Shown in pieces: positions 255 through 64,000 of a stretch of 64,000 nt of DNA. The notes below the pieces were generated by a model that saw only the letters and a list, made by a program, of their open reading frames with translations, was not told the DNA's origin and made no database searches. The translations under genes and the position numbers were made by a program. The DNA comes from Dermatophagoides farinae. Taxonomy: Eukaryota; Arthropoda; Arachnida; Sarcoptiformes; Pyroglyphidae. Each line of letters begins with the position of its first letter. Position 1 is the stretch's first letter. Where the stretch lies: contig NC_134680.1 of the NCBI RefSeq assembly GCF_024713945.1, forward strand, positions 2,132,001 through 2,196,000, in the 5' to 3' direction.

Positions 255-1156
255 CTAAAACAATGGCCAATGTTTTTGTTGCTTTACGTTCACGGCGTGC
301 CGATACTTTTTCCCTTTTTTTACGACTTGATTTATGTTTTCTACCCAGATTAAAACGAGATTTTTTCTTTGGATAACCATCATCATCGATAATATTGCTG
401 CTATTGTTGTTATTATTATTATGAATTGTGATATCATTAATACCACCGGTATTACCACTACCGCCACTACCATCACCGGTTGTTGTACCACCATCATTTA
501 TATTTGTTCCTATAACACCCTCACTACTACCACCACAATTTGGTCCATTGGTTGATGGATCAACTAATTTTCCATGATCATCATCATCATCTTCATCATC
601 ATTATTATCAATATTTATTCGAATTTTTGTCATTTTTTTACGTCGAATATTATTATCTATATTTGTTGTTGTCGTTGCCGTTGTTGATGTTGTTGTCGCT
701 ATTGCTGTTGTCGTTGTTGTATGATGATCCGATGTATGTGCCATTCGTGAATTTTTTTGGATTCGTTTTTGTCGATTTTGTTGTTGTTTTTTCAATTTAT
801 TATTATTATTTTCATTTTCATTTTCATCATCTTTTTCCTTTTGATTACCATCATCATCATAATCTTTTTTTTCTTTACCGGATATAGAATCAAATGTTGT
901 TGAACTGCTATCACTATCACAATGTTTTGTTGTTGTTGTTGTTGTATTTAATGCTGCTGCTACAGCATTTTCTACTAAAAACATATCACATTTTATTGGA
1001 TTCTCTGATTTATCTGAAGCCATACATCCATTTGAAACATACAAGTGAGAGAGATAAAAAAAAGATCAATTAAAATTCAATAATAATCAAACAAATCAAA
1101 TGAAATTATCACCTTTATCATTCAATGTTTTTATCGTTGAATTTTTTTTACAATTA

Positions 1157-1191
<35 letters not shown>

Positions 1192-4100
1192 ATCGTCATC
1201 ATCCTCATCATCATCATCATCTTCATCGTCTTCATCATCATCGTCATCTAATCGACTTTCAATATTATCACTATTACTTGTTTCAATACAATTATCATTA
1301 TTTGAATTTGTTAAATTTGTTGTATTCGTTAATATAATCGATACAGTTGGTAATGTTGTTGTTGTAGTTGCTGTTGTTGAAATATGATTTTTAATATTCA
1401 GATCTTGATTTGGTATATGAATCTGTAGCTGCGGTGATTGTTGTTGTTGTTGTTGATGTCGTTTATCTAATTTTGTTGTTACTGTTGTTGTTGGACAAAT
1501 CTGTAATTGTTTACTCAATGAAATTGATTCCAATGTTTTTGTTGATTCAATACCAAGTATATTTTTTGCCTTATTCGTTTGATTCATCATCAACATCATA
1601 TTATTATTATTATTTTTTGTATTATTATTCATTGTTACAGCTGTATAAAGTTTATTATTTTGATTATTTCCGGTTGTGATTGATTTTTTCTGATGACCAC
1701 CAACACCATCACCGGAACTACTACCAATATGATCCATTTTTTTCTTGGCACGATCATGTATTGCTTTGAAAATTTTATAATATAATATAACCATCATAAC
1801 ACAAGGTACATAGAATGACCATAATGATGAATATATAATAAAATTTGAATTATAAAATATACATAATTCAGGTATACGTTCTGGTGATGTATTTGCACCA
1901 AGCATGATTGGTAATCCAACACCGAATGATGCCATCCATACTAAAATGATTGTAATTATAACACGTTTATCGTTTTTATGTTTTGAATAAAATATTGGAT
2001 GTGTAACGGCAATATATCTATGAAAATGATAAAACAAAACAAAACAGACAGATAGAAAAAGCAATCATGAAATTAAAAAATTTAAATTTGATAAAATAAT
2101 TTAAAAACAAATAGAATGAAGATACAAATAGAATTGATCATTTGCACAAGTTTCATGTGTGTTTATTGTGAAAACTTCAATTTTGTATATATTGTAAAAA
2201 TAATTGGCAATAATAGAATCGAAAAGAATTTTTTTTATTTATTCGATACTGCAGAATAATTTTGTTTTTTTCCGATTTACACTTGAAAACCAATGAAAAC
2301 TTTTTTTTTCCTAGATTTGTTTGTTTGTCATTCAATTGATTTATACACACATACATACATACATACACACGATTAATGTAATACCGGAATTTCGGCTAAA
2401 TGGCCATTGGCCAAAATGATGGTGTAATTTTCAAAATCTTACAACAACAACAACAACAACAACAAATAAGGTTATTATTTTTTTTTTTTTTTTTTTTTTT
2501 TTTTTGGTTGTCATTTTCATTCTGAAAAAAAACCAGAACAGTAACAACAACCATTCACATATATAAAAAAAAATGTTATCGATCAAGTTGTATGTAAATA
2601 GTGAATAAAAAAAAAACTTTTTTCCATGTTCAAATAATAACAAGAAGAAATCAAAGCGGAAGCCAAACTTTTTTTTCATGAACAAAAATTCAGAAAAAAA
2701 AGTACCACTGTTTTCAATGATGATCATATAATGTGGCTAGTGTGTGAGACTCGAGATAAAAAAAAAGCTTTAAAGGAAATTAAAAAAAAACAATTTCTAC
2801 ATGTGTATGTGTGTGCAATCCAATATTGTATCCTACAGAATTTATTATATTGACTATCGGATATTTTACTATTTGTATAGTTATTCGCGGTATATATATA
2901 TATGGAAATGAATTTTAATCAAAGAAAAAATAGCCGTTAAATTTTTTTTTTCGTTGAAAATTAGTCTTGAATTTGGTCGTTTTTTCTCTCACTAGTTGGT
3001 TAACATTTTTTTCAAATTCAATTTTTTTTTTTTATTGCCCAATTTCTCATCAATACATTTTGTCGTTATCATTATCATTATTTTATTGTTGTTGTTGTTG
3101 TTGTTGTTGACAACCAAAATGTACATACGTTCAATGTCGATTTTCTCGATGAAAAAAAAATTGTGCAATTTAAATTTTTTTATATAATTTTTTTTCATTT
3201 CAATGTAATGGTTGTAGCATTTATTTCGGTGAATTTGGAAAATGGAAATAGAAACAAAAAAAAAATACATACCGATCAAAACTGATGGCAACCAAATTGA
3301 ATATGGATGCTGTACTACAGATAACATCCGTGGCAATATAAAGATCGCATATTGTTTCGCTTAATTGCCAATCGACATTCACCTAGAATTTGTTTTGAAA
3401 ATGAAATGTAATCGATAAAAATTTATTATAAATCGATAATTGTAAATTTTTTTATTAAAGTATTTTATTTATTTTTTTTTATCAACATTTTGCACACACA
3501 CACACAAACTTGATGAACAGTGAAATTATGGGAAAATTTTTTTTTTCCTCAAAACATGAAATTGATTTTATTGGAAAAAAAGAATGGTCCAATTGGTATC
3601 AAAATTGATGAGATTGATGATGATGATGATGATGATGATGGGTAAATCATCATTTTCAGGAAACATGGTTTTGTTATGTTTTTCTATTTGAGTCGACACA
3701 ACAATCATCTAGTATTATTATGTCTATTATATTTCTGTAAATTTCACCATCATCAGCACTGGTCATCATCATCATAAGACACCTTGCGGCTATACATGTA
3801 ATCAATGGTTTTTGCAATTCGGTTTCTTTTTTTTTATCTTAGAAAAACCGAAATTATTTTCACTACAAAAAAAAATGAAATGAAAATGAATTCAAAGCTT
3901 AAGAAATAAAAATATAAATAAATTTTGTTTTTTATTTCATAACCATACACCTACGGCCATAATAAGGCACATAAGAATTTTCCATTTTTTTTTGTCTATC
4001 ACTAATTTCTTTTTCCTGTTCAAATTTATATATAAGAATTCATGAACAATTCCCATTCATCATTTGTCCAGTCCATTCGAATAAATGTCACCACCATTTA

Positions 4101-7100
4101 TACATCTAAATTCAATCATCATCATCATCATCATCATCATTATCAATGGTCATTATTTATCATCATCAACATCATAATATTTTCTTTTGTTCACACACAA
4201 ACAAATTATTATTATTCTTGATTATATTCAATTATATATTTCTTATCCATATTTGATATTCTTCATTTTGTTTTTTTATTTATTTATTATACATTCAATT
4301 CATTTCATTTTTCTTACAAAGAAATAGAACAGAAAACTTTATTACTATCATCATTTTTCATTGTCATTTTTTTTCGGTCCCATTCTTTGAATGCTCACAC
4401 ACACACACACACAATTCATTCATTATCGTTAAGGATGACCATCATCATTATCATCATCATCATCATTAACATCAACATTCAATTAATGGTTAAATAATGA
4501 TGATGATTGATTTATATATTTTTCACTTGTTCATCTCTACATATAAATATTTTTTTTCTTGTTATTTGTTCCACAGTAGATGCCCATAGCCATTATGTGT
4601 GTGTGTGGGTGTGTGTATGTGTGTATTTTGTGATGAGAAAATTTCTACTTTTTTTTCAGTTTCTCATTTTTTTTATTGATGATCGCATTGTCCATCTATA
4701 TATATGTGTGTAGTATTCCCAAAATGATAATGATCAATAAAATTATTATCATTATTATTACAAACAGAAATAACCGGATAATGAATGAATGAATTTGATG
4801 ATAATTTCCTGGACGTTACGGGATGGTGATTCGAATTCATTTATTTTTTTGGCATTCTCTCTTCCTTTCTTTGTATGCTTTTCGCGATGAACATTGACAA
4901 AAATAATTTCCGTCGATTTGTTTGGTTCGGTACGAATCTATTCATCTAATTTTAGCCGTCATAATGTCCATTTTATTCAGTTGAATTATTAATCAAAATT
5001 TCATTGTTTTATTTCATATTTTTCTTTGTTTGGTTTCATCATCATCATCAAATAATCTATTTTATCAAGGTTTCACATTACACAAGTGATAGGAATGAAA
5101 AGAACCAGAAAAAAATCCATTCATTCTAAATGAAATTAAAAAGAAAAAATTCAATTGACATGAAATCTCCAAAATAAAAGCTAATGTAATTCCACATGAA
5201 TATTCAAATAATAAAAAAAAGATAAGATTACTTGGTGCCAAGAAAAAAAACATTAAACATCAGCCAGAAAAGATGCAAATTGAAATGAAAATCCTAATTT
5301 AAGGTATCCTAGGTAAATAATTCCATGAGCGGACTGAAAAAACAAAAGGAATTTTCAAATGAAAAGAGAATTTACTATATTTACTAACCTAACCTAAACA
5401 AAAAAAAAATAGATTTTTTCAACAAAACCAAGTTTCTTTCATCATTGTCATAATTATTATTATTGTTTATTATTCTGTGCAAAAAAAACGAATATTCATC
5501 TATTTTCTCACGTTAATTCAATTATTTAATCATATAAAATTTTCATCATCAAAAAAAAACACACACACACACAATGAAAAAGAGAGCTAAAACAAAAGTA
5601 CAGAATAAAAAGGATTTTTCTTTGTTTTGTTTCATGGTTCAGAAATTTTTCAAAAACTAAACAAACAAAATCCTGGCTTAAATCTCTTGGGTATCATCAT
5701 CAAAGTTTTTTTTTTCCTGAAACATTTTCTTGTTGTTGATCTTTTCTCTTTCTCTCTATCTATATTCATTCTGTTTTATTTTATTTTATTTTATTTTCTG
5801 AATTTGTTTTTCGCATTTTCACTTACTTTTGTTTTCAATATACAAACAGTGAGAAATTTTTTTTGTTTTGTTTTTGTTTTGTTTTGTTTTAAATGTCGAA
5901 ATATACCCCATAATGACATTTGATCTGAAATTGAATTTTTATGAAAAAAAAGAATTCAGAAGATTCTCGAAAACAAACAGAAAAAAAATAATAATCTTGC
6001 TCTTTTTTTTGACAACAAATGTCTTTGTGTGAAAGACTAAATATTTTATAAACACATCAATTTTGCTTCTGTGTGAATTTATTGAACAATTACCGATTGA
6101 TTTTTTTTGTGTGTGTAAAAGAGCACAATGTCCATAATTCTAGTTCTGTAAAGTCTAGTTCAACTATTGAGCGTGTGATATACGCTGAAAAAATAACGAC
6201 TTGGTTGGTCTTTGTCTTTTTTATTTAAAAAAAAACGATCAAATTTTTTCAGTTTTTTTTCATATAACTTTGATCATCAATCCTTATTGAAGATTTCTGT
6301 TCATTTTTTTTCGTTTATGGTTACTTGACATTACATTATATACAACATATAATCCATAGTTATTTGTGGTTGGTTAGTTATTATTATCGTTCTCGTTAAA
6401 ATAATTGTATTGGCTTTGTGTGAAATGTATTCACATTCACTTGAAATAATAATGAACAGGAATTTGTGTATAAAAAAAATGAAATTCAAGTCGAATATAA
6501 CATTTATCTAATAGATTTTCATCAAGATGTCACAATGGATAAAAAAAAACTATAATAGAAAACTTACCATAACATACGTTGAAAATAGCATCGGTATAGC
6601 AACAAATAGATCGGCAAATGCAAGACTTACAATAAACCAATTCGTAACAGTCTGTAGGCTTCGTTCACGATAAACACTGTTTTTTTTATGTATTGAAAAT
6701 TGTTGAAATTTAGAAAAAAAAACGCAAAACAAACACCAGAAAAATACCTTAAAATGACGAGAAAATTTCCAAACAATGCCAATATTGGTAATATAATCAA
6801 TATTAATGCCCAATAAACACGTTCATGTTCAAGATCAATTTGATGATGATCATTGATTATCATCATTGTTGTTGCCGTTAAATTCATACCGGATGTTGTT
6901 GCCATTGTTGTAGCATTATTATTAACATTATCAAACGCAGACATTCTTAATAAACATGCTGCTGCTGATGTTTCGATATTTGTATCGGTATTTGTCGCTA
7001 AATTTGTACAATAATTTTTCCATAAATCATTATCACTACTGTGATTAAATCCAAAATTTGGCCAATCATTATTATCATTATTATTTGAATCATTTTTCAG

Positions 7101-7994
7101 TGATATTGTCGTAGATGGTCGCAACGTTGACCATTCATAATCAATAAAATTATCATTATCATTATCATTATTATTTTTATTTAATATTGATTCCGTTGTC
7201 GTCATCAACGTCAATGTTTCTTCTGTTGTGGTTGTTGTTGTTGAATTGTGGAAATTTGATTTCCATGTTCGTTGAAATCCATTATCATCATTATTATCAT
7301 GGATAATAAGACGATCATTGTGATTATGTGATACAATTGATTTTGATGATGAATAATGTATACTACTGTTTTGTTGACCATTAATCATTGATGATTGATA
7401 TAATTCTTTTAATAAATTTTTCGAATATGATGATGATAACGTTTCCGGTATTTCCGTCGTCGTCGTTGATATTATCGTTTCATTATCATCATTATCTACA
7501 ATCATTCGGAATAGATTATCATTTTGAGCAATATTCTGTTGTTGTTTAGATTTATTCATTTCGATCAATATTTTATCCGACATCATCGTTGTTTGGACAG
7601 TTCCATTATTATTATCATCATTGTTTGTTCGATAATTTTTTGTAATAAAACTAATTGGAAAATTGTTCTTTGTTGTCATTGGCTTTGTTGTTGTTGTTGT
7701 AGTTACAACTTTTTCGATATTATTATTATTGAATGGCTGCCATAGATTTATACTTATCGTATTCATTATGTTGCCACCATTATGTTCATCAACAGTGGTA
7801 TGAATATTTTTATCATTCGTAATATTATCATTATTATTATTATCATTGGCCATTGATGACCAATGATCACTATGAATAGATGATTCATTTGTACCATTAT
7901 CATCATGATCATTATTACTATTAATCAATGATAATGATTTTGGTTTTGTCCAAAATGATAATGTTATATTCTGAAATATATTATGACCTTCCAT
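255..7994 (-). CDS. Dop2R: D2-like dopamine receptor (GPCR), partial at 3' end
   Basis: Rhodopsin-family aminergic receptor, expected to couple dopamine to Gi/o at the neuronal plasma membrane. Exons (minus): 7994-6748, 6676-6568, 3382-3273, 2017-1113, 1013-255; all phases close, giving 1043 codons before the window edge. TM1 begins near residue 393 after a long Asn/Thr/Ser-rich ectodomain with many N-glycosylation sequons. Seen: the TM1-ICL1 junction LVILSVYRERSLQTVTNW, D2.50 (residue 438), C3.25 (464), amine-binding D3.32 (471), DRY (488-490), ECL2 Cys541 and the three TM5 serines (552, 553, 556). ICL3 runs about 450 residues with poly-Asp and poly-Thr. It ends in RRERKATKTLAIVLG, the start of TM6, at a GTAAGTG donor; TM6-TM7 lie left of position 1. 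Sequence around TM1-TM5 matches insect D2-like receptors closely. The start ATG has A at -3 and G at +4. A 5' noncoding exon is possible but not visible. Confidence 0.93.
1155..1248. repeat. (ATC/GTC)n trinucleotide tract coding for poly-Asp
   Basis: A nearly pure TCATCG/TCATCA array lies inside dopamine receptor exon 4. On the minus strand it encodes a run of about 30 Asp with a few Glu in the third cytoplasmic loop. It also produces a long poly-Ser/His shadow frame on the plus strand. Confidence 0.85.
2018..3272 (-). other. Dopamine receptor intron 3
   Basis: A 1.25-kb intron between the TM3 exon and the ICL2-TM5 exon. The donor is CG|GTATGT at 3272 and the acceptor is CATAG ending at 2018. 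It contains a (CAA)n tract near 2442-2466 and a long T tract near 2479-2505. No further coding segment was recognised. Confidence 0.75.
3383..6567 (-). other. Dopamine receptor intron 2
   Basis: A 3.2-kb intron between the TM2 and TM3 exons, with donor ATG|GTAAGT at 6567 and acceptor TCTAG ending at 3383. It contains ATG/CAT trinucleotide runs (near 3617-3641 and 4117-4140), CA/TG runs (near 4395 and 4590-4625), and TTTTA and TTTTG pentamer runs (near 5774-5798 and 5860-5890). No exon was recognised. Confidence 0.7.
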
Positions 7995-8698
7995 GATTAT
8001 TTTTCAGGTGTTGTTGTCAATAAATTAATTGATTCAATGAAATTGATAATTAAACAAAATTTATTGTTTTCCAATTCATTTGTTTCATGATTTTCTATTC
8101 ACAATAATCGTAGAAACATGAATTTTTATGAAAATTGCATTGTATATGAACAGGACGGATGTCATGTGTGTTTGTGATGTTCATGGTACGTTTACTTTCC
8201 ATTTATGGAACAAAAAAAATCTGTAAAAAAAGAGAAAAAAAACAATAATAATAACCATATATAAGTAAAACAGAACTCAGCGACAATAACAACAAAAAAA
8301 AATCAAAGGCTAAGAAGATTTATTTATTTATTTCTGGTTCAAATCTTTAAAATATACGCACACATCCAAGAAAATTGGAGTGATTTTTCTTGTTTAGATT
8401 TCGGTGTGTGTGTGTATGTGTTTAGAATTTTTCAAAAATCCTTTGAGAATCGCTTTACAACATTGATAAATTGATAAAAACATTAAATAACAGCAACAAA
8501 TTGATATTGGTCGTATAAATACACTCTGTGTCAATATTTTTTTATCCATTTTTTTAGCTTGGTATTTTGTGATATTGGAAAAAAAGAAAAACAACTTTTG
8601 ATCATCATCATTATTAATTTATTCATCCAGTATATTATGGTTGTGATTGTCGTCCCAATTGAAATGAACAAAAAAAAAACAGAAATAAACAGACAGAC

Positions 8699-18544: not shown

Positions 18545-18549
18545 ATAAT
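18545..18549. repeat. Target-site duplication, left copy (ATAAT)
   Basis: Five bases directly before the 5' LTR, repeated exactly at 20501-20505 after the 3' LTR end. Five bp is the usual duplication length for Ty1/copia elements. Confidence 0.8.
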
Positions 18550-18720
18550 TGTTAAAAATATTGTGGATATAACGTTATATCTGAATAAGATTTACAACTT
18601 TGAAAAACAACGTGTTTTTTGTTGTATTGATTTTTTTGTGTTATGATTAAAAATTTCTTTCTTGATTATTAAAAAATAAAACCATTTTTAAACGTGATTA
18701 TTATCTTCTGATCCTTAACA
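18550..18720 (+). repeat. 5' LTR of the copia element
   Basis: A 171-bp segment from TGTTA to TAACA with short terminal inversion. Its last 66 bases recur at 20435-20500 with one mismatch. It contains AATAAA-type AT-rich sequence but no promoter I can place with confidence. Confidence 0.8.
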
Positions 18721-18722
18721 TT

Positions 18723-18734
18723 TGGTAGCTGAGC
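18723..18734 (+). other. Primer-binding site
   Basis: TGGTAGCTGAGC, two bases after the LTR end, matches 10 of 12 bases of the usual copia primer site TGGTATCAGAGC, which pairs with the 3' end of initiator methionine tRNA. Position and sequence together support the call. Confidence 0.65.
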
Positions 18735-18757
18735 TTCGTGGTTAACGACGGTCTATC

Positions 18758-19110
18758 ATGGGTGATAATAAATTTACGGAAAATATTGTTCGGGCATTGG
18801 AGCAAGACTATTGACTTCAAGACTAGAAACAATTGAATCGACTAATAGTCGATCAAATAATAATGGTAATAATATTGTAAAAAATAATCATGAAAATTTT
18901 GCTTTGAATCAAGTTGTCAAATACAATGGTTCGAACATCAAAATATGGCTATCAACGGTTAAATCTGCTTTTCGATCCTGTGGCTATAGTAAATTTCTTG
19001 AAAGTGAAATTCTACCTAATGATCCTCAATACAATTCATATGAAAATTGTCTCGGTACCATCCGTTTGATGTTCGAGTCAAATAAATTGGAAATAATCCA
19101 AAGGCAATTG
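18758..19110 (+). pseudogene. Copia gag fragment A, frameshifted
   Basis: A short frame starts at the ATG at 18758 and stops after about 18 codons. The frame continues in another register from about 18811 (first codon TTG, no ATG). It contains a VVKYNGSNIKIWLSTVKSAF segment typical of the N-terminal copia Gag fold (target sequence, then Trp in a W-x-x-x-hydrophobic pattern). Gag similarity ends near 19110, where the sequence joins the inverted protease at a shared CAATTG. It encodes a capsid-type protein in intact relatives; here it is broken by a frameshift and truncated. Confidence 0.65.
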
Positions 19111-19383
19111 TCGAATGGAAATCAAGTTCGAGTTAAATTTACCAAAGGCAACATTTTTAAGAATCAATTGTTGATTGGCTTTTGGTTTAATAATGACATC
19201 ACCAATTTTTTCAGATTCAACTGTTTCACCACTAGCTGTTTCAAATTGAATTTTCTTAAATTCAGGATCAATAAGATCTTTATCATTAATTGTGGTATGT
19301 GTGGTACAGCCTGAATCGAGAATCCACAAATTTGAGGATTTATCAATATTTTTTGTCATAATTGACTTTGCATCTTGTTTTTG
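19078..19383 (-). pseudogene. Copia aspartic protease fragment, inverted
   Basis: The frame reads WILDSGCTTHTT, the catalytic D-S-G box of copia-type Pol proteases. The downstream LILKNVAFGKFNSNLISIRQL matches the ILKNVLYVP..NLLSV pattern that ends this domain. It lies opposite to the element's LTR polarity and is cut off just after that motif; no integrase follows. Upstream, in the same frame, it is separated by one TAA (19386-19384) from the Nuf2-derived frame. It cannot be expressed as part of a normal Gag-Pol from the 5' LTR. Confidence 0.75.
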
Positions 19384-20040
19384 TTATCCATTCGATTTAT
19401 TATTTGATGAAGATGATGATGCAGATTTGGATGATGATGGCACTGATGAAGATGTAGATGGTGATGATTTATCTTTAATCGAACGTTTAAGATTTGCATT
19501 ACGTTTTTCCAATTCTTTGCGTTCACGATAAATATTGGAATATTTTTCTTTATATTTAAACCAAGAGTCATTCAAATCATTATATCGAACATAAAAAGTA
19601 GCCAATGAATGAAGAATACGAATCGTTCGATCACGTTTCGGTTCTAAAATGTCAATCATTTTCATATCATTCATGCCAATACTTGAAACAAAATAATTGA
19701 TGCAGTGAAAGACATTAATCGCCAAATATGTTTGTTCCATATGATCATTCAGACCGTTGATACAAGCCAAAATATCTGGTTGATAAATATTAATAGACTT
19801 GTCAAATTTTTCTAAAATTAGCATGTAAAGTTCAATAACAAATTCTTTGCTTGGTTGTTGTAGATCTTCTTTTCGTATGGAAATAATTTCGTTTGATTTG
19901 TAAAAATCAATAATATCATCTTCAGTAAATAATAAATCGAATGGATCACAAAATGTTGGAATTGTTGAAAGAAAGATTGAATTACTGATTAATGTCACTG
20001 TTGAGCGTATTTGATTAGTACGATCAATAGTGAACAAGTT
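19384..20040 (-). CDS. NUF2: Nuf2 N-terminal (CH domain) open frame captured inside the copia element
   Basis: A 218-codon stop-free frame plus TAA. It begins after a plausible acceptor (TTTATAG|AACTTG, boundary 20041/20040) and contains no strong start ATG. Residue pattern matches the calponin-homology head of the kinetochore protein Nuf2: IRKEDLQQPSKEFVIELY near the start, later DILEPKRDRTIRILHS followed by a Phe/Tyr-Arg segment and a Lys/Glu/Arg-rich stretch where Nuf2's coiled coil begins. In its family Nuf2 pairs with Ndc80 (Hec1) to bind microtubules. The similarity stops where a Ser-rich tail (SSSS..NNKSNG) starts; the coiled coil is absent. It lies antisense to the LTRs. It may be a dead capture or an expressed novel frame; the open state over about 650 nt in AT-rich DNA is notable. 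Confidence 0.68.
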   Translation of the reverse strand, partial: NLFTIDRTNQIRSTVTLISNSIFLSTIPTFCDPFDLLFTEDDIIDFYKSNEIISIRKEDLQQPSKEFVIELYMLILEKFDKSINIYQPDILACINGLNDHMEQTYLAINVFHCINYFVSSIGMNDMKMIDILEPKRDRTIRILHSLATFYVRYNDLNDSWFKYKEKYSNIYRERKELEKRNANLKRSIKDKSSPSTSSSVPSSSKSASSSSSNNKSNG

Positions 20041-20163
20041 CTATAAATTAAGCATGATTAGCAGTTATTTATCATTATTAAAAACCGTTTAAAGCCAAAC
20101 TATTGAATCCATTATTATTATTGAATCATATACTTTCAAGCCACTTGCAAATTCTAATAGGTT

Positions 20164-20433
20164 ATGGGCTCATCTACGCAAGAGCTGCCAGATATTTGTA
20201 TTTTGGACGATACAAATTTTCATCGATGGTCTTTGGAGATCATGTTGACGATGAAAGGCAAAGGTCTTTGGAAGCATGTCGTCGATAACAACGTAAACGA
20301 CGCAGAAGATTCGAGAAAGTATATGGCAATGGCTTTTATCGTTAGAACGGTTAATGAGACGAATTTTCATCGTATATCCAGTTGTGAGACTGCAAAGCAG
20401 ATGATGGAAAGGTTGATTCAGTTTCATTCATAA
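20164..20433 (+). pseudogene. Copia gag fragment B (different family from gag A)
   Basis: Starts at ATG within GGTTATGGGCTC and encodes 89 residues. They include a DDTNFHRWSLEIMLTMKGKG segment and, later, SSCETAKQMMERL, both typical of the N-terminal copia Gag (DUF4219/UBN2-like) domain. It stops where the 3' LTR remnant begins, so the C-terminal half of Gag and the zinc knuckle are missing. Its sequence is clearly unlike gag A at the 5' end of the same element, so two copia lineages contributed. Confidence 0.7.
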
Positions 20434-20434
20434 A

Positions 20435-20500
20435 TTCTTTCTTGATTATTAAAAAATAAAACCATTTTTAAACGTGATTATTATCTCCTGATCCTTAACA
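20435..20500 (+). repeat. Truncated 3' LTR of the copia element
   Basis: Sixty-six bases matching the end of the 5' LTR (18655-18720) at 65 positions. The first ~105 bases of the LTR are missing, and no polypurine tract precedes it. Confidence 0.8.
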
Positions 20501-20505
20501 ATAAT
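20501..20505. repeat. Target-site duplication, right copy (ATAAT)
   Basis: Exact copy of 18545-18549, directly after the TAACA end of the 3' LTR. Confidence 0.8.
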
Positions 20506-50613: not shown

Positions 50614-51590
50614 ATGTCAACCGAATCGAAAGCTGATGTTCGTACAGAACAGCCTCAACAACAACAACAACAACAACAACCAAAACAACAGCAACAACAA
50701 AGTGGTTCAGCAATGGATGTATTGAATTTTACAAATACCATATTGGCCATTTTGATTGTTTATGTTTTGTATAAATTATTTGGAACGAAAAAAAGTATTT
50801 GCTAGAATTGAATTGTCAATAATTATTTCGGAGTGTTTCGAGTTTAATGAATTTTTTTTTATTATTATTGTTAAACAAAACAGAAAATGATGAACGTGAA
50901 CGATTTCGATTACCGGATCCATTACCTAAACATGATATGACATTGGATGAATTACGACGTTATGATGGCACTGCACCGGATAAACGTGTATGCATCGCTA
51001 TATTAGGTCGTGTTTATGATTGTACAAAAGGTTATGATTATTATGGCCCCGGTGGTGCTTATTCTACATTTGCCGGTCGTGATGCAAGTCGTGCATTGGC
51101 TAAATTTGATGTGATGGCCGTCAAAGATGAATGGGATGATATTACCGATTTAGATCAGAATGAATTATCATCCGTTATGGAATGGAATGAACAATTTCAG
51201 GAAAAATATGATTATGTTGGCCGTCTAGTACGATCCAAAGAGGAGATATTAGAACGTGCCGATTTTGAAGAAGATTTAGATGTCCATAATGGAGCACAAC
51301 AACAACAACAGCAGCAGAAATCATCAACAAAAACTCATAAACAACAACAATCATCAACAATAACCGATGATGATGAAATTGAAGTCATCAATAGCAGTGA
51401 ACAAGAATCAAATAATGGTAATATGGGTATTACAGAAACGATTGGTAAAAAAGTTTCATTTTTAGATGCCAAACACAACGATGATGATGATGAAAAGAAA
51501 TTGTCCGAATCATCCGATGAAATTGAAGTGATTGAATCAGCAGCAGCAGCAGTAGCAGCAACAATAACAACGACGACTACCAAGCAATAA
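50614..51590 (+). CDS. PGRMC: PGRMC/MAPR-type haem-binding membrane protein
   Basis: Membrane-associated progesterone receptor component family: a cytochrome-b5-fold protein of the ER and other membranes that binds haem and partners with P450 enzymes. Exons 50614-50794 and 50884-51590; 295 aa. Start: the first ATG in frame (AACATGT, A at -3). Residues 1-33 are Gln-rich, and about 39-57 form a single transmembrane helix. The b5-like domain spans about 77-175 with LRRYDG, VYDCTKG, YYGPGGAYSTFAGRDASRA and KYDYVGRL. Tyr120 is the equivalent of the haem-ligating Tyr113 of human PGRMC1. The acidic, Gln-rich C-terminal tail (about 110 residues) is much longer than the human one and contains DEIEVI twice. 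PGRMC1 versus PGRMC2 cannot be decided; arthropods usually have a single member. Confidence 0.92.
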
Positions 51591-58218: not shown

Positions 58219-60998
58219 AACATCGATTACATCATCATCATCGAAATTGTTGTTATTGTATCATTGTTTTTGTTTCATTATGAGAAATAAAAACAAAAAT
58301 GTTTGTTTTTTTCGTTTGCTTGTTCCAAACAAAAAAAAAAAAAAATTTCATCATCCAAACATTTCCAATTGGTAGGAAAAGTAAAAATAATAATTTAGAT
58401 AATTCAATTACCACAACAACAACAACAACAACAACAACAATAGCAGCAGTTATTGATACAGATTTATTAATGTTGTTTTTTTTGTCTTTCTTCACTTTTT
58501 CTCATCACTATCATTAAAGAAGAATCGATTTGTCCTGATTCATTATCAAATCATCATATTAATTATTATGAAAAAAATCGACAACAATTATTATCATTAT
58601 TAATGCCGGATTTTTTGGCCGAATCACAACGTACAATGAATAAAAGTGAAAAATCATTATCAATGTTTTCATTTGAATTCATACAAAATCTTGATAATCT
58701 ATTACGACATTTAAATCGTAATCTAATTTCATTACCACCGATCACATCATCATCAAATATATCGATGAAATTGGAAAAATGGTTTGGACGTGAAAATATT
58801 ATCGATGATCTGAATCGTATCCATAATTTGAATAATAATGATCCTGGTTTAATTATCGAAACGATGGCATTAATCATTGTTAATCGATTGGTCAAAGGTG
58901 AAAGAATTGAATTATTTGAATCAAGATTTTTGCGTGATATAATCGATAGATATGGTATAAAACGTTCTACATCTGAATCTGCTATACATTCATCATTTTC
59001 AAACGAAAATCTCGTAATCATTGATCAATATGGATTGGCCAGATTACTCAATGATCTACATATTGGTGGTCTAATCAATCAATCGAATCATGAATCAACC
59101 GTAACTCGACATCGTGAACATCGATCTGCACCACACGAGAATCACCACAATCATCAGGTTAAATTTCTTATGAATTCGATTGAAAATAATGATGATCCAA
59201 TTGAAAAGAATATTGAATGCTATGAATATGATTTCTATGTGGAAAGAATCAGACAAATTCAACATCATATGAAACATCGAAACGATGCTAAAAATTCTTC
59301 GGAAGTGAATTTATTAACTGAAAAAGAACTTGAATATTTAGCGCCAATTTTTCTACAGCAAATTCTTTCGAAAGCCTGTGAACGTATAATGATCGATAGC
59401 GGCAATGATGATAATGGTGTTATAAAAAGAAAAATATCACATGAAAGACTTCAGTCTGAATCTAGTCATCATTTTAATCATGCTGACGATAAATTGGTTG
59501 AAAAGATGGAAAATGTCAACAACATTAGTAATGGTAAGCTCAATTTTATGTTTGGAATTTAAATTTTTTTACACTTTACTTTGTTTCATATATTTCATTA
59601 CATTGAATTTGAAATAAATTCAAACAATTAATTATTAGCTATCCTATATGGCAATATTTCTGTTCTCATCATAAGTCTATCATCTTTGGCCGGTATATTG
59701 CTCATACCAATACTGAAAAGTCGTGCATTTACATTGACCATACAGCTGTTGATTGGCTTAGCATTTAGTTCAATGTCTGGTGATGCATTATTTCATCTGA
59801 TTCCAGCCGTTCTTGGTATTCATTCACATGATAAACATGATGAAAAAAATTCAACCAATCCCCATGATGATCATAATGATGAAAATCATTTCGAATTTCT
59901 TTGGTTTATGGTTGCCATCTCTGCATCAATTTATGTACTATTTCTTTTCGAAGTGATCTCAAATGCATTAGCCAAATTGAAAGAGGATGGAAAAAAATCC
60001 GCTAAAGAATCCGGCCATTCTCATCATCATCAACAACATTATCCACATCATCATCATCATCAGGAACATCATCATGATCATCATCATGGACATTTCACAA
60101 GTGATGCTACACGTTCAAACAATAATCGAATGAAAGATTCAACATTATCGATTCAGGTAAATATCTATCACCCATATAATCGAATGCTAAGATTATAAGA
60201 TTTTTTCTTATTATTAGTCTTCATGTGATTCATCAAAAATGCCACCGACAGCAATGGCAATTACGAATATGTTAATATCTTCTAATAATAAAATCGAAGA
60301 TTCAGCCAACACGTTAAGTCCATCAATATTGTCATCATCAAATTCAAATACAACATTGATCGTTGATAAAATATCTACTAAAAATGATGATGATGATGAT
60401 GATAGTAAAAATGATGGTGGTATCATCTGTTTGGGAATGACATCATTAGCATTAATTATTACGCTTAGCGATTCCATACACAATCTTCTGGATGGTGTTG
60501 CAATCGGAATTTCATTCTCAAATAGTATTTCACGTGGATTATCCACATCTATTGCTGTGTTTTGTCATGAATTACCGCATGAATTTGGTGATTTTGCTGT
60601 GATGTTATCGACCGGAATGTCTGTACGACGTGCAGCAACAATCAATTTTGTTTCCGCATTGACTTGTTTCATTGGACTTTATATTGGCCTATTGTTGGGC
60701 AGTTCGGATCAGGCTAATCGATGGGCTTTGGCCATATGTGCTGGTCTTTTCCTTTACATCGCACTCTGTGATATGGTAAGTAATGTTATGCAAATACTAA
60801 ACTGACAAAAAAACAATGGAATTTTTTTTTACATTCCATTTTACCAACCTATAGTTACCTGAGCTTAAAGAGATGACCAATTCAATTTCCACTCGACAAT
60901 GGTGGACATCATTTCTTATGAAAAATATTGGAATAATTTCTGGTTATTGTTTCATGATATTGGTTGCCGTATATGAAGATAAGATTAATTTCGCATGA
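56699..60998 (+). CDS. SLC39A: ZIP metal transporter, SLC39A LIV-1 subfamily (ZIP4/ZIP12-like)
   Basis: Moves zinc (or a related metal) into the cytosol across the plasma or vesicle membrane. Exons: 56699-56983, 57445-57709, 58520-59533, 59639-60156, 60218-60775, 60855-60998; 927 aa, phases close. An N-terminal hydrophobic segment (residues 10-25) is a probable signal peptide. A long ectodomain follows; its end has LAPIFLQQILSKAC, like the PAL-type helical pair of ZIP4/8/12/14. TM1-3 lie in exon 4 (SGDALFHLIPAVLG in TM2). A His-rich cytosolic loop precedes TM4, which carries SIHNLLDG (His782, Asp786). TM5 carries the LIV-1 metal motif HELPHEFGD (811-819). The last segment before exon 6 is LYIALCDM, followed by LPELKEM. 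Motif and loop features favour ZIP4/ZIP12 over ZIP8/14, which have Glu in place of the first His. Length well exceeds most ZIPs. Confidence 0.92.
57710..58519 (+). other. ZIP intron 2
   Basis: 810-nt intron holding a long A tract (57938-57956), a CA array (58184-58214), a T-rich segment and a (CAA)n tract near 58411-58440. No exon was recognised. Confidence 0.75.
58184..58214 (+). repeat. (AC)n microsatellite in ZIP intron 2
   Basis: About 15 uninterrupted AC units. Confidence 0.9.
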
Positions 60999-61760: not shown

Positions 61761-64000
61761 TTAATGATACATAACATAGCCATTTGTACCTCCGGCTGTT
61801 GCTTGTACCCGTGGTGATAATATCGATGAGCTACTTAGATAACCACCATTTGTACCATTACCCGACATGACCGGTATGACCGTCTGTTGTGATCCATAGC
61901 TACTATCATGGCTATTCTGTTCATGTTTACTACGTTTACCATTTTTAATCAACTGTGCTTCTTTGGCCGAAGTTTTTTTACTTGAAGATTTGCCATTTAA
62001 ATGTACGGCACCATGTAACATGGCAGCTGCAGCCGCATGATCACCATAAATTGAACGTTTACGGCAACACATAACCACTGAACAAGTGCAGAAAAATAAT
62101 GCCAAAGTCGATAATGTTACGAAACATACGAGAAAATTAATCGATGACATGCAAATTTTTTCATTTATCTTTTCCGAGAGCCAAGATTTCGGCCCAATTC
62201 GATAATGAGGATGACTACTGAATGTTCCATTAGATGTTTCATTCGTTTCTATAATCGATTGTTGTTCGGCAGTTAATTTATCCGATGTAGCAAAACTAAG
62301 ATCACCAGTCGATATGACACGTATAACTTTTTCTACACCAACCTCTTTAGCTGCGGTTACATTTGTTTCTTGAAGGATTTCTTTCAATTCACCACTTACA
62401 TCACGAACTTCACGAGGTCGAGCCAATACACTATTATCCGATCGTCCAGGTAGTTCACCGATTTGTGCTGCCGCTGATGGCAAATCCGAACTAAGATAAA
62501 TGTCACCACCGCTACTACCGCCCATAATATCTCGATGGTTTTGTAGATTTTGCATTGTACCAGTGATCTGATGATTAATATAATGAATATTCGATTGACC
62601 CGATTGATCACATTGTTCCGGACAGCTATTTTTACAGATCTGAATGGTACATTGAAAATGTACTTCCATTGAATCGGGAAATTTGAATGCCTGGAAATGT
62701 GCGTAGCTCAACACCGATGCACTTGAGCCAAAGTTTTTGATTTTCGTAAATTTAGACATAAGTTTCGATCGTACAATACAACCGTTGGTGTCGACTAATT
62801 CGATTGGTGCTCGTTTGCCATCATGAGCTACACAATTTCTGACCAACATATCGAATTTATTCTCCTCATCTTTGATAGCTAATACCATTGTCATTGTTTG
62901 GCCAATTTTTACAATACCGGCTACTTCACTTGCCCATGGACCACGACCAACTTGAATCTGCATCCAACAACCGACATTATCACCAGCGAAATCGGCTCGA
63001 ACTACATCGACCATATCGACTGGGAATGGACGGAATGATACGGATTTTTCATATTGATCATGCCATGTGCATCGAAGTTTCCGCGCCTGATCCCAGGCTT
63101 CTTGTACGAATGGATCATATTGAAATATAACGGTGTTTTCGAAAAAGTTTCCAGCATTAACATTGCCATAGGCTGTCAATGAATTTGGTCCCATATTACC
63201 GGTGGTACCACAACTATCGATTCGTATATCGAAATAAATTGATGAACGACCAGAACCGGATGGCAAATGGATACAATTCGGTTGACTAAAATGTCCTTTA
63301 CTGAAGATGATACCATTGAATGGACGATCAAATTCAACTGATACTTTCATGAAATTCTTTTCACATTTAACATCTAAATGAACAATTTTAGCTAATTCAG
63401 GCTGAGCAATAGGCCATATTTCATTAGATGATGTTTGACGATCGTAATCTGGATGTAAAAGATACAAATTAGAATGAGATTGAGTTTGGAAACTATATAT
63501 CATATATTACCGTTGATCAATTCATTGTGTCTATCATCACCTGAATCGATATATTCGGCAATAGTGTGGACCATTGGATCAATACCACTCATACCTACTG
63601 GTTCAATATCGATATGAGCTGGTGATCCAGGTGGACCTTGTTGTTGTTGTTGTTGCTGTGGTGGTGGTGGTGGTGGACCTTGATGATGCATCATTTGTGA
63701 TTGTGGTTGAGGAGGCATCAATGATTTTGGTCCTGGTTGCATAATTCCATTTGAACCATGTGGTGGTAATGATTTAAAGATTGGTTGATGACTACCATAT
63801 CCTGGGGGTGGTGGGTGTTGTTGAAATTGTGGTGGTGGCGGTCCTCGATGACCTGGATTTGGTCCATTTGGTGGAAATGATGGTCGCATATTTTGTGGAC
63901 CTGGTTGACGCATCATTTGTGGTCCTGGACCACGCATTGGTTGCGGCGGTGGAGGATGTGAATGATGAACTTGTCGTAACATATTCGAACTGGATGTCAT
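61761..64000 (-). CDS. dyl: Dusky/dusky-like zona pellucida-domain cuticle protein, 5' partial
   Basis: Arthropod ZP-domain membrane protein that shapes apical extracellular matrix and cuticle. Exons (minus): from the edge at 64000 to 63511, and 63448-61761 with the stop; 62-nt intron, phase closes. The first segment is Pro/Gln/Gly-rich low complexity. The ATG at the very edge may be internal, so the true start is unknown. The ZP domain includes KCEKNFMKVSVEFDRPF, QYDPFVQEAWDQARKLRCTW, GPWASEVAGIVKIGQTMTMV, FDMLVRNCVAHDGKRAPIEL and FQAFKFPDSMEVHFQC; these blocks are nearly those of fly dusky-like. A candidate furin-type site (RPREVR) follows the domain. Near the C terminus is one transmembrane helix (about FLVCFVTLSTLALFFC), then Cys-Cys-Arg-Lys-Arg and a short cytoplasmic tail. 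Dusky versus dusky-like cannot be settled from sequence alone. Confidence 0.92.

Follow-up and report, generated by a model that had tools for sequence, protein, structure and literature searches.

How could part of the host gene NUF2 come to lie, inverted, between the LTRs of a retrotransposon? This question is raised by positions 18545-20505 of the window, that is, of the whole 64-kb stretch of DNA analysed here. The answer that we favour, with a probability of roughly 0.8, is a non-autonomous element of the copia LTR type that was found a single time, is a chimera of two families and carries an LTR-mediated retrocopy of a partial host NUF2 mRNA. The features on which this answer rests are collected in Table 1. 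Elsewhere in the window, judging by eye, we take the frames at 1096-8003 to be GPCR-like, those at 50823-51590 to resemble a cytochrome-b5-like (MAPR) protein, those at 58471-60805 a ZIP zinc transporter and those at 61761-63506 a ZP/cuticlin-like protein. Rfam gave 0 matches at the gathering score on the 64-kb window.

Table 1. Features of the mosaic element, in positions of the window.
Feature	Position	Strand	Basis
Target-site duplication (TSD), left copy, ATAAT	18545..18549	.	sequence; equals 20501-20505
5' LTR, copia family A, 171 bp, TG...CA	18550..18720	+	sequence and solo copy
Primer-binding-site-like stretch TTTGGTAGC...	18721..18738	+	sequence
gag A fragment	18772..19101	+	match to 1353-aa copia frame on C3
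Inverted protease piece of copia family A, with DSG motif	19102..19378	-	Pol_BBD match
Family A gag/protease linker, Ser-rich, inverted	19379..19464	-	match to L010
NUF2 segment without intron (calponin-homology-domain region; codons from about 7 to about 160)	19465..19928	-	96% to C1
Short sense copy of family A linker	19929..19953	+	inverted repeat of part of 19379-19405
Complete LTR, copia family B	19954..20159	+	97/94/92% to solo LTRs L014/L015/L016
Copia-type primer site GGTTATGGGC	20160..20169	+	complementary to middle of tRNA gene
gag B, first 88 codons	20164..20427	+	Pfam and genomic match
3' LTR A remnant, 69 of 171 bp	20432..20500	+	comparison with 5' LTR
TSD, right copy, ATAAT	20501..20505	.	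sequence

Parts of a two-family copia element

The limits of the family A LTR were set by a solo LTR at C5:2824499-2824671 (96%), which by eye has the TSD GATCA. The 3' LTR remnant is identical to the 5' LTR at 67/69 positions over 20432-20500. In the primer-site-like stretch, the first nine bases are those that follow the LTR of L039, a full-length copia relative on C3. Copia gag and protease domains, LTRs and a 5-bp TSD, with gag B under the Pfam cut-offs, are those expected of a Ty1/copia element. The ends of the element, its primer site and the order gag A (+), protease (-), gag B (+) are as the preliminary description had given them. Neither an integrase nor a reverse transcriptase was found by Pfam in the four main frames of 18545-20505, as distinct from five smaller overlapping ones, and the element is non-autonomous.

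The gag A frame aligns to a full-length 1353-aa copia frame of the same genome at about 55-58% identity (55% over 103 aa; 58% to the segment C3:6856667-6856966), and its DNA is 89.5% identical to a fragment at C4:1948521-1948663. In the Pfam scan of four frames, it gave no match; the frame at 19078-19383(-) matched Pol_BBD (PF22936, E 9.4e-13). The gag A frame is broken, since the ATG at 18758 sits in another frame. The full-length frame belongs to L039 (C3:6852769-6857268), in which it is open and the 183-bp LTRs are 100% identical, so that its insertion is probably recent. The deleted family A relative in L010 lies about 3 kb from L039. Because gag A aligns to residues 31-132 (55%) and the inverted linker and protease to residues 284-410 (52%) of this one frame, they most simply come from one family, with the part between them lost. 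The best match of the family A linker is to the deleted relative L010, where 19319-19414 is 92% identical to positions 3890-3986 (97 bp). In L010 an LTR, a gag start, the linker, a reverse-transcriptase-like frame (by eye) and a second LTR all lie on the same strand; thus the inversion is not a trait of this relative.

The whole had at first been taken for one copia element. In fact two families took part, and a complete LTR of family B, previously unlisted, precedes gag B. Its solo copies, which set its limits, have perfect 5-bp TSDs in L015, L016 and L022 and one of 4/5 in L014, all by eye. The ten bases of its primer site complement the central part of the tRNA gene C19:257799-257870, which from its letters appears to have the anticodon CAT. 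Drosophila copia primes with an internal fragment of the initiator tRNA. The gag B frame matches Retrotran_gag_2 (E 1e-4) and DUF4219 (E 6e-4), both under the curated Pfam cut-offs, and is 76% identical to C2:1131745-1132012.

The NUF2 segment and its parent gene

The minus-strand frame of 218 codons at 19384-20040 had been described as Nuf2-like. It matches Nuf2 (PF03800, E 1.1e-16, residues 38-154; Pfam, four frames scanned), and 6/7 sequences matched in the PDB at E <= 1 are NUF2 constructs (best E 5.4e-5). Together with the protein matches these give NUF2, and not a copia Gag, the alternative that the preliminary description had raised. As NUF2 in its whole length, the frame was ruled out: NUF2-derived DNA is confined to 19465-19928, and the remainder is copia linker (19379-19464) and linker with antisense LTR B (19929-20040).

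A parental gene, for which a search of the host genome had been proposed, was found. It is the sole full NUF2 gene found and lies on contig C1, where the segment is 96% identical to C1:8199690-8200048 plus C1:8200123-8200227. A 73-bp GT..AG intron interrupts the C1 gene and is precisely absent from the mosaic, in which exon 1 runs into exon 2. Among the best candidates scored, NUF2 occurs at two loci only, in the window and on C1; in one genome search 3/3 matches were NUF2 and in another 3/26, with 19 to linker/protease and four to antisense LTR B. Around the segment, neither the poly(A) nor the TSD of its own that would mark a LINE-type pseudogene was seen in the sequence by eye. The order calponin-homology domain then coiled coil, as in a functional NUF2, is also missing from the copy, which stops at about NUF2 residue 160.

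Relatives of the C1 NUF2 protein were collected at E <= 0.001 among the 7994 candidates that shared most words with it and were scored. Five were obtained, namely the public protein P0003 (97%), proteins of Dermatophagoides farinae (73%), Euroglyphus maynei (69%) and D. pteronyssinus (57%), and P0001, which is the mosaic protein. The TTC17-like neighbour of C1 NUF2 is 90% identical to D. farinae. By these identities the host is a pyroglyphid-like mite that is close to the sequenced D. farinae without being identical to it. Compared with the mosaic and the related mite proteins, C1 NUF2 has one extra base near codon 19 (L009 about 3725-3735, C1 about 8199724-8199734). Either the assembly is wrong at this frame-shifting base, or an essential gene is truly damaged there. 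From the C1 frameshift to the joint codons, the mosaic differs from C1 in 11 codons by 13 changes, all of them nonsynonymous (codons 0-103), and its exon 2 part is identical to C1 up to the joint. With 19 to 25% of sites taken as synonymous, 13/13 nonsynonymous changes have a chance of 0.065 to 0.024; there is thus no sign of constraint, and the excess of replacements is at most marginal.

Joints, copies and order of events

At joint 1, where the 5' end of NUF2 meets the linker, 12/14 positions agree in register with the mosaic's own linker, a score for which random pairs of 14-mers, one from NUF2 mRNA and one from L010 of family A, give a rate of 3.5e-5 (400,000 draws). Against the linker of L010, an outside relative, just 9/14 positions agree. 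At joint 2, the 3' end of NUF2 and the linker share 9/11 positions (GAAGAGAAATC and AAAGATAAATC; the random draws above being for 14-mers), and the reading frame continues across the joint. The joint of gag A and protease lies at about 19101-19105, where L039 by eye has a loosely similar stretch. The joint of linker and LTR B falls exactly on the first base of LTR B (19954), and that of gag B and LTR A lies at 20427-20432, where position 20427 (query 1883) is the common end of six matches of the mosaic in the genome. Two arms of 27 nt, 19379-19405 and 19927-19953, form an inverted repeat and agree at 26/27 positions. Their sole mismatch is the base that creates the TAA stop of the inverted linker at 19384-19386, where P0001 has serine. 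The arms with their one mismatch fit a fold-back copy and a later point change. In families A and B no full-length donor near enough for base-exact joints was found, the best A relative being 52-55% identical in protein.

Because the NUF2 segment lacks poly(A) and has short in-register similarities to the linker, template switching by copia explains it better than LINE retroposition. The parent gene with the intron missing from the copy, the flanks of LTR sequence within the element's TSD, and the microsimilar joints without poly(A) are the marks of an LTR-mediated retrocopy. They make capture of a host gene segment by template switching, as the preliminary description had proposed, the most likely origin. 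In a virus-like particle, the copia reverse transcriptase would have jumped from linker sequence of family A onto the mRNA of NUF2. A strand switch where NUF2 ends on the other side, at a TGAAGATGAT-type similarity, would have led back onto linker sequence, either by folding back on the strand itself or by moving to complementary cDNA, and would have turned the protease-NUF2 block around. The joint of linker and LTR B could reflect a family B element nested in the family A linker or end-joining to the end of a B cDNA. The chimera would have been inserted once through the copia integrase. The two unequal LTRs, a point against this reading, do not come from a single ordinary cycle of reverse transcription, which yields two complete LTRs; an internal deletion at a later time best explains why the 3' LTR lacks its 5' part. 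We infer this order of events, and the element would now be a decaying relic.

The same parts might have been assembled after integration, if a family B insertion and a LINE-type processed pseudogene of NUF2 had landed in an ordinary copia A element, which was then rearranged by inversions and deletions. We regard this patchwork as unlikely. A start of LTR B exactly at 19954, like that of a nested insertion, and a truncated 3' LTR would both be accounted for, but not a NUF2 piece without poly(A) or its own TSD that is truncated on either side in register with the copia linker and continues in frame across the downstream joint; moreover, the outer TSD is intact.

The preliminary description also held that the mosaic was mobilised. 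This stands for one insertion; a second copy was not found in the 62.4-Mb, 22-contig genome (window on C4; best candidates scored), and none of the 40 other rows of the mosaic genome search, two of which are its own inverted arms, joins two foreign parts by more than about 10 bp. Amplification is therefore unsupported, and an amplified mosaic family was rejected. In public data, P0001 (319 aa, four member sequences) is the protein of the same mosaic on a separate contig of 1396 nt, which argues against an assembly error. It equals the two frames of the window joined, except for the serine at the stop and a TTG codon as the starting M. Its contig could stem from the same species or the same project, but it is distinct from the 7.1-Mb contig that holds the window. 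Another public protein, P0003 (451 aa, ENA contig of 18977 nt), opens with antisense LTR B and linker and continues as full NUF2 without the intron. P0006, the nearest database relative (99%) of the 3' neighbour of C1 NUF2, is also on a contig of 18977 nt. This equal length is the sole link, and by it P0003 is probably a misjoin of the C1 NUF2 locus and the mosaic; it is less likely to be a real full-length retrocopy and the progenitor of the mosaic. Near its C-terminus, P0003 has a cluster of residues that differ from C1, several of which match D. farinae.

The joined frame in P0001 also bears on whether NUF2, linker and protease form a working gene of the host or the element and not a relic. 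There the 319-aa frame is open, the DSG motif is kept and the NUF2 part has no stops, yet the copy in the window has a stop between its two parts, and its differences from C1 (0 synonymous, 13 nonsynonymous, frameshift to joint codons) carry no sign of purifying selection. The LTR promoters would face the opposite way, the coiled coil of NUF2 is absent and the searches gave no second copy, all of which makes a working gene very improbable. Least credible is a joining of unrelated pieces during assembly: public assemblies can fuse the two NUF2 copies, and P0003 is best read as such a chimera, but the joints of LTR B, linker, NUF2 and protease recur in P0001 on its own contig and matching TSDs and LTRs enclose the whole.

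Relation to known captures and meaning

In the retrosequences of yeast Ty1, a copia-type reverse transcriptase joins cellular cDNA to Ty1 by template switching. The joining proposed for the mosaic is the same, whereas Ty1 is an experimental yeast system. A LINE-1-type processed pseudogene is likewise an intronless copy of mRNA; the mosaic differs in being an internal fragment within copia DNA, with neither poly(A) nor its own TSD.

Capture by an LTR element had been thought undescribed, which does not hold. In its part on LTR-mediated retrocopies, a review names cases from mosquito, Drosophila, zebrafish, chicken and plants, and credits the invertebrate and vertebrate ones to Tan et al. 2016, Genome Res. 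(PMC5408686). The route given there is that mRNA is packed in particles and copied, often incompletely, with template switching at microsimilarities, and that the integrase of the element inserts the product (PMC5408686). As outlined in that part, the metazoan retrocopies share with the mosaic a spliced fragment of host mRNA in LTR-element sequence, microsimilar joints, no visible poly(A) and element-type ends. On that outline they differ from the mosaic, whose host piece is inverted relative to the LTRs and in frame with linker and protease, and which involves two copia families. Bs1 of maize is presented in the same part, and in the titles cited, as an LTR element with retrocopies of three cellular genes (PMC5408686). 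On that account Bs1 resembles the mosaic in its captured host coding sequence and hybrid reading frame, but it is a plant element with other genes, of which three were taken up and not one. In the open-licence literature, no report of NUF2 capture by a retrotransposon was found. The mosaic fits the described route of LTR capture, with strand inversion and a second copia family added.

As NUF2 biology, the mosaic is most likely inert. It is highly doubtful that the open allele is made as a protein of 319 aa in which the NUF2 calponin-homology domain, the Ser-rich linker and the protease are fused. If it were, the product would link a kinetochore domain that binds microtubules with a protease domain from a retrotransposon, and the fusion could disturb chromosome segregation or draw element particles to spindles.

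The locus provides an animal example, dissected in detail, of host mRNA taken up by an LTR element, for which the parent gene, the intron absent from the copy, the two copia partners and the joints are identified. The inversion points to strand-switching in copia reverse transcription, and the in-frame joint indicates how such events can create fusion reading frames.
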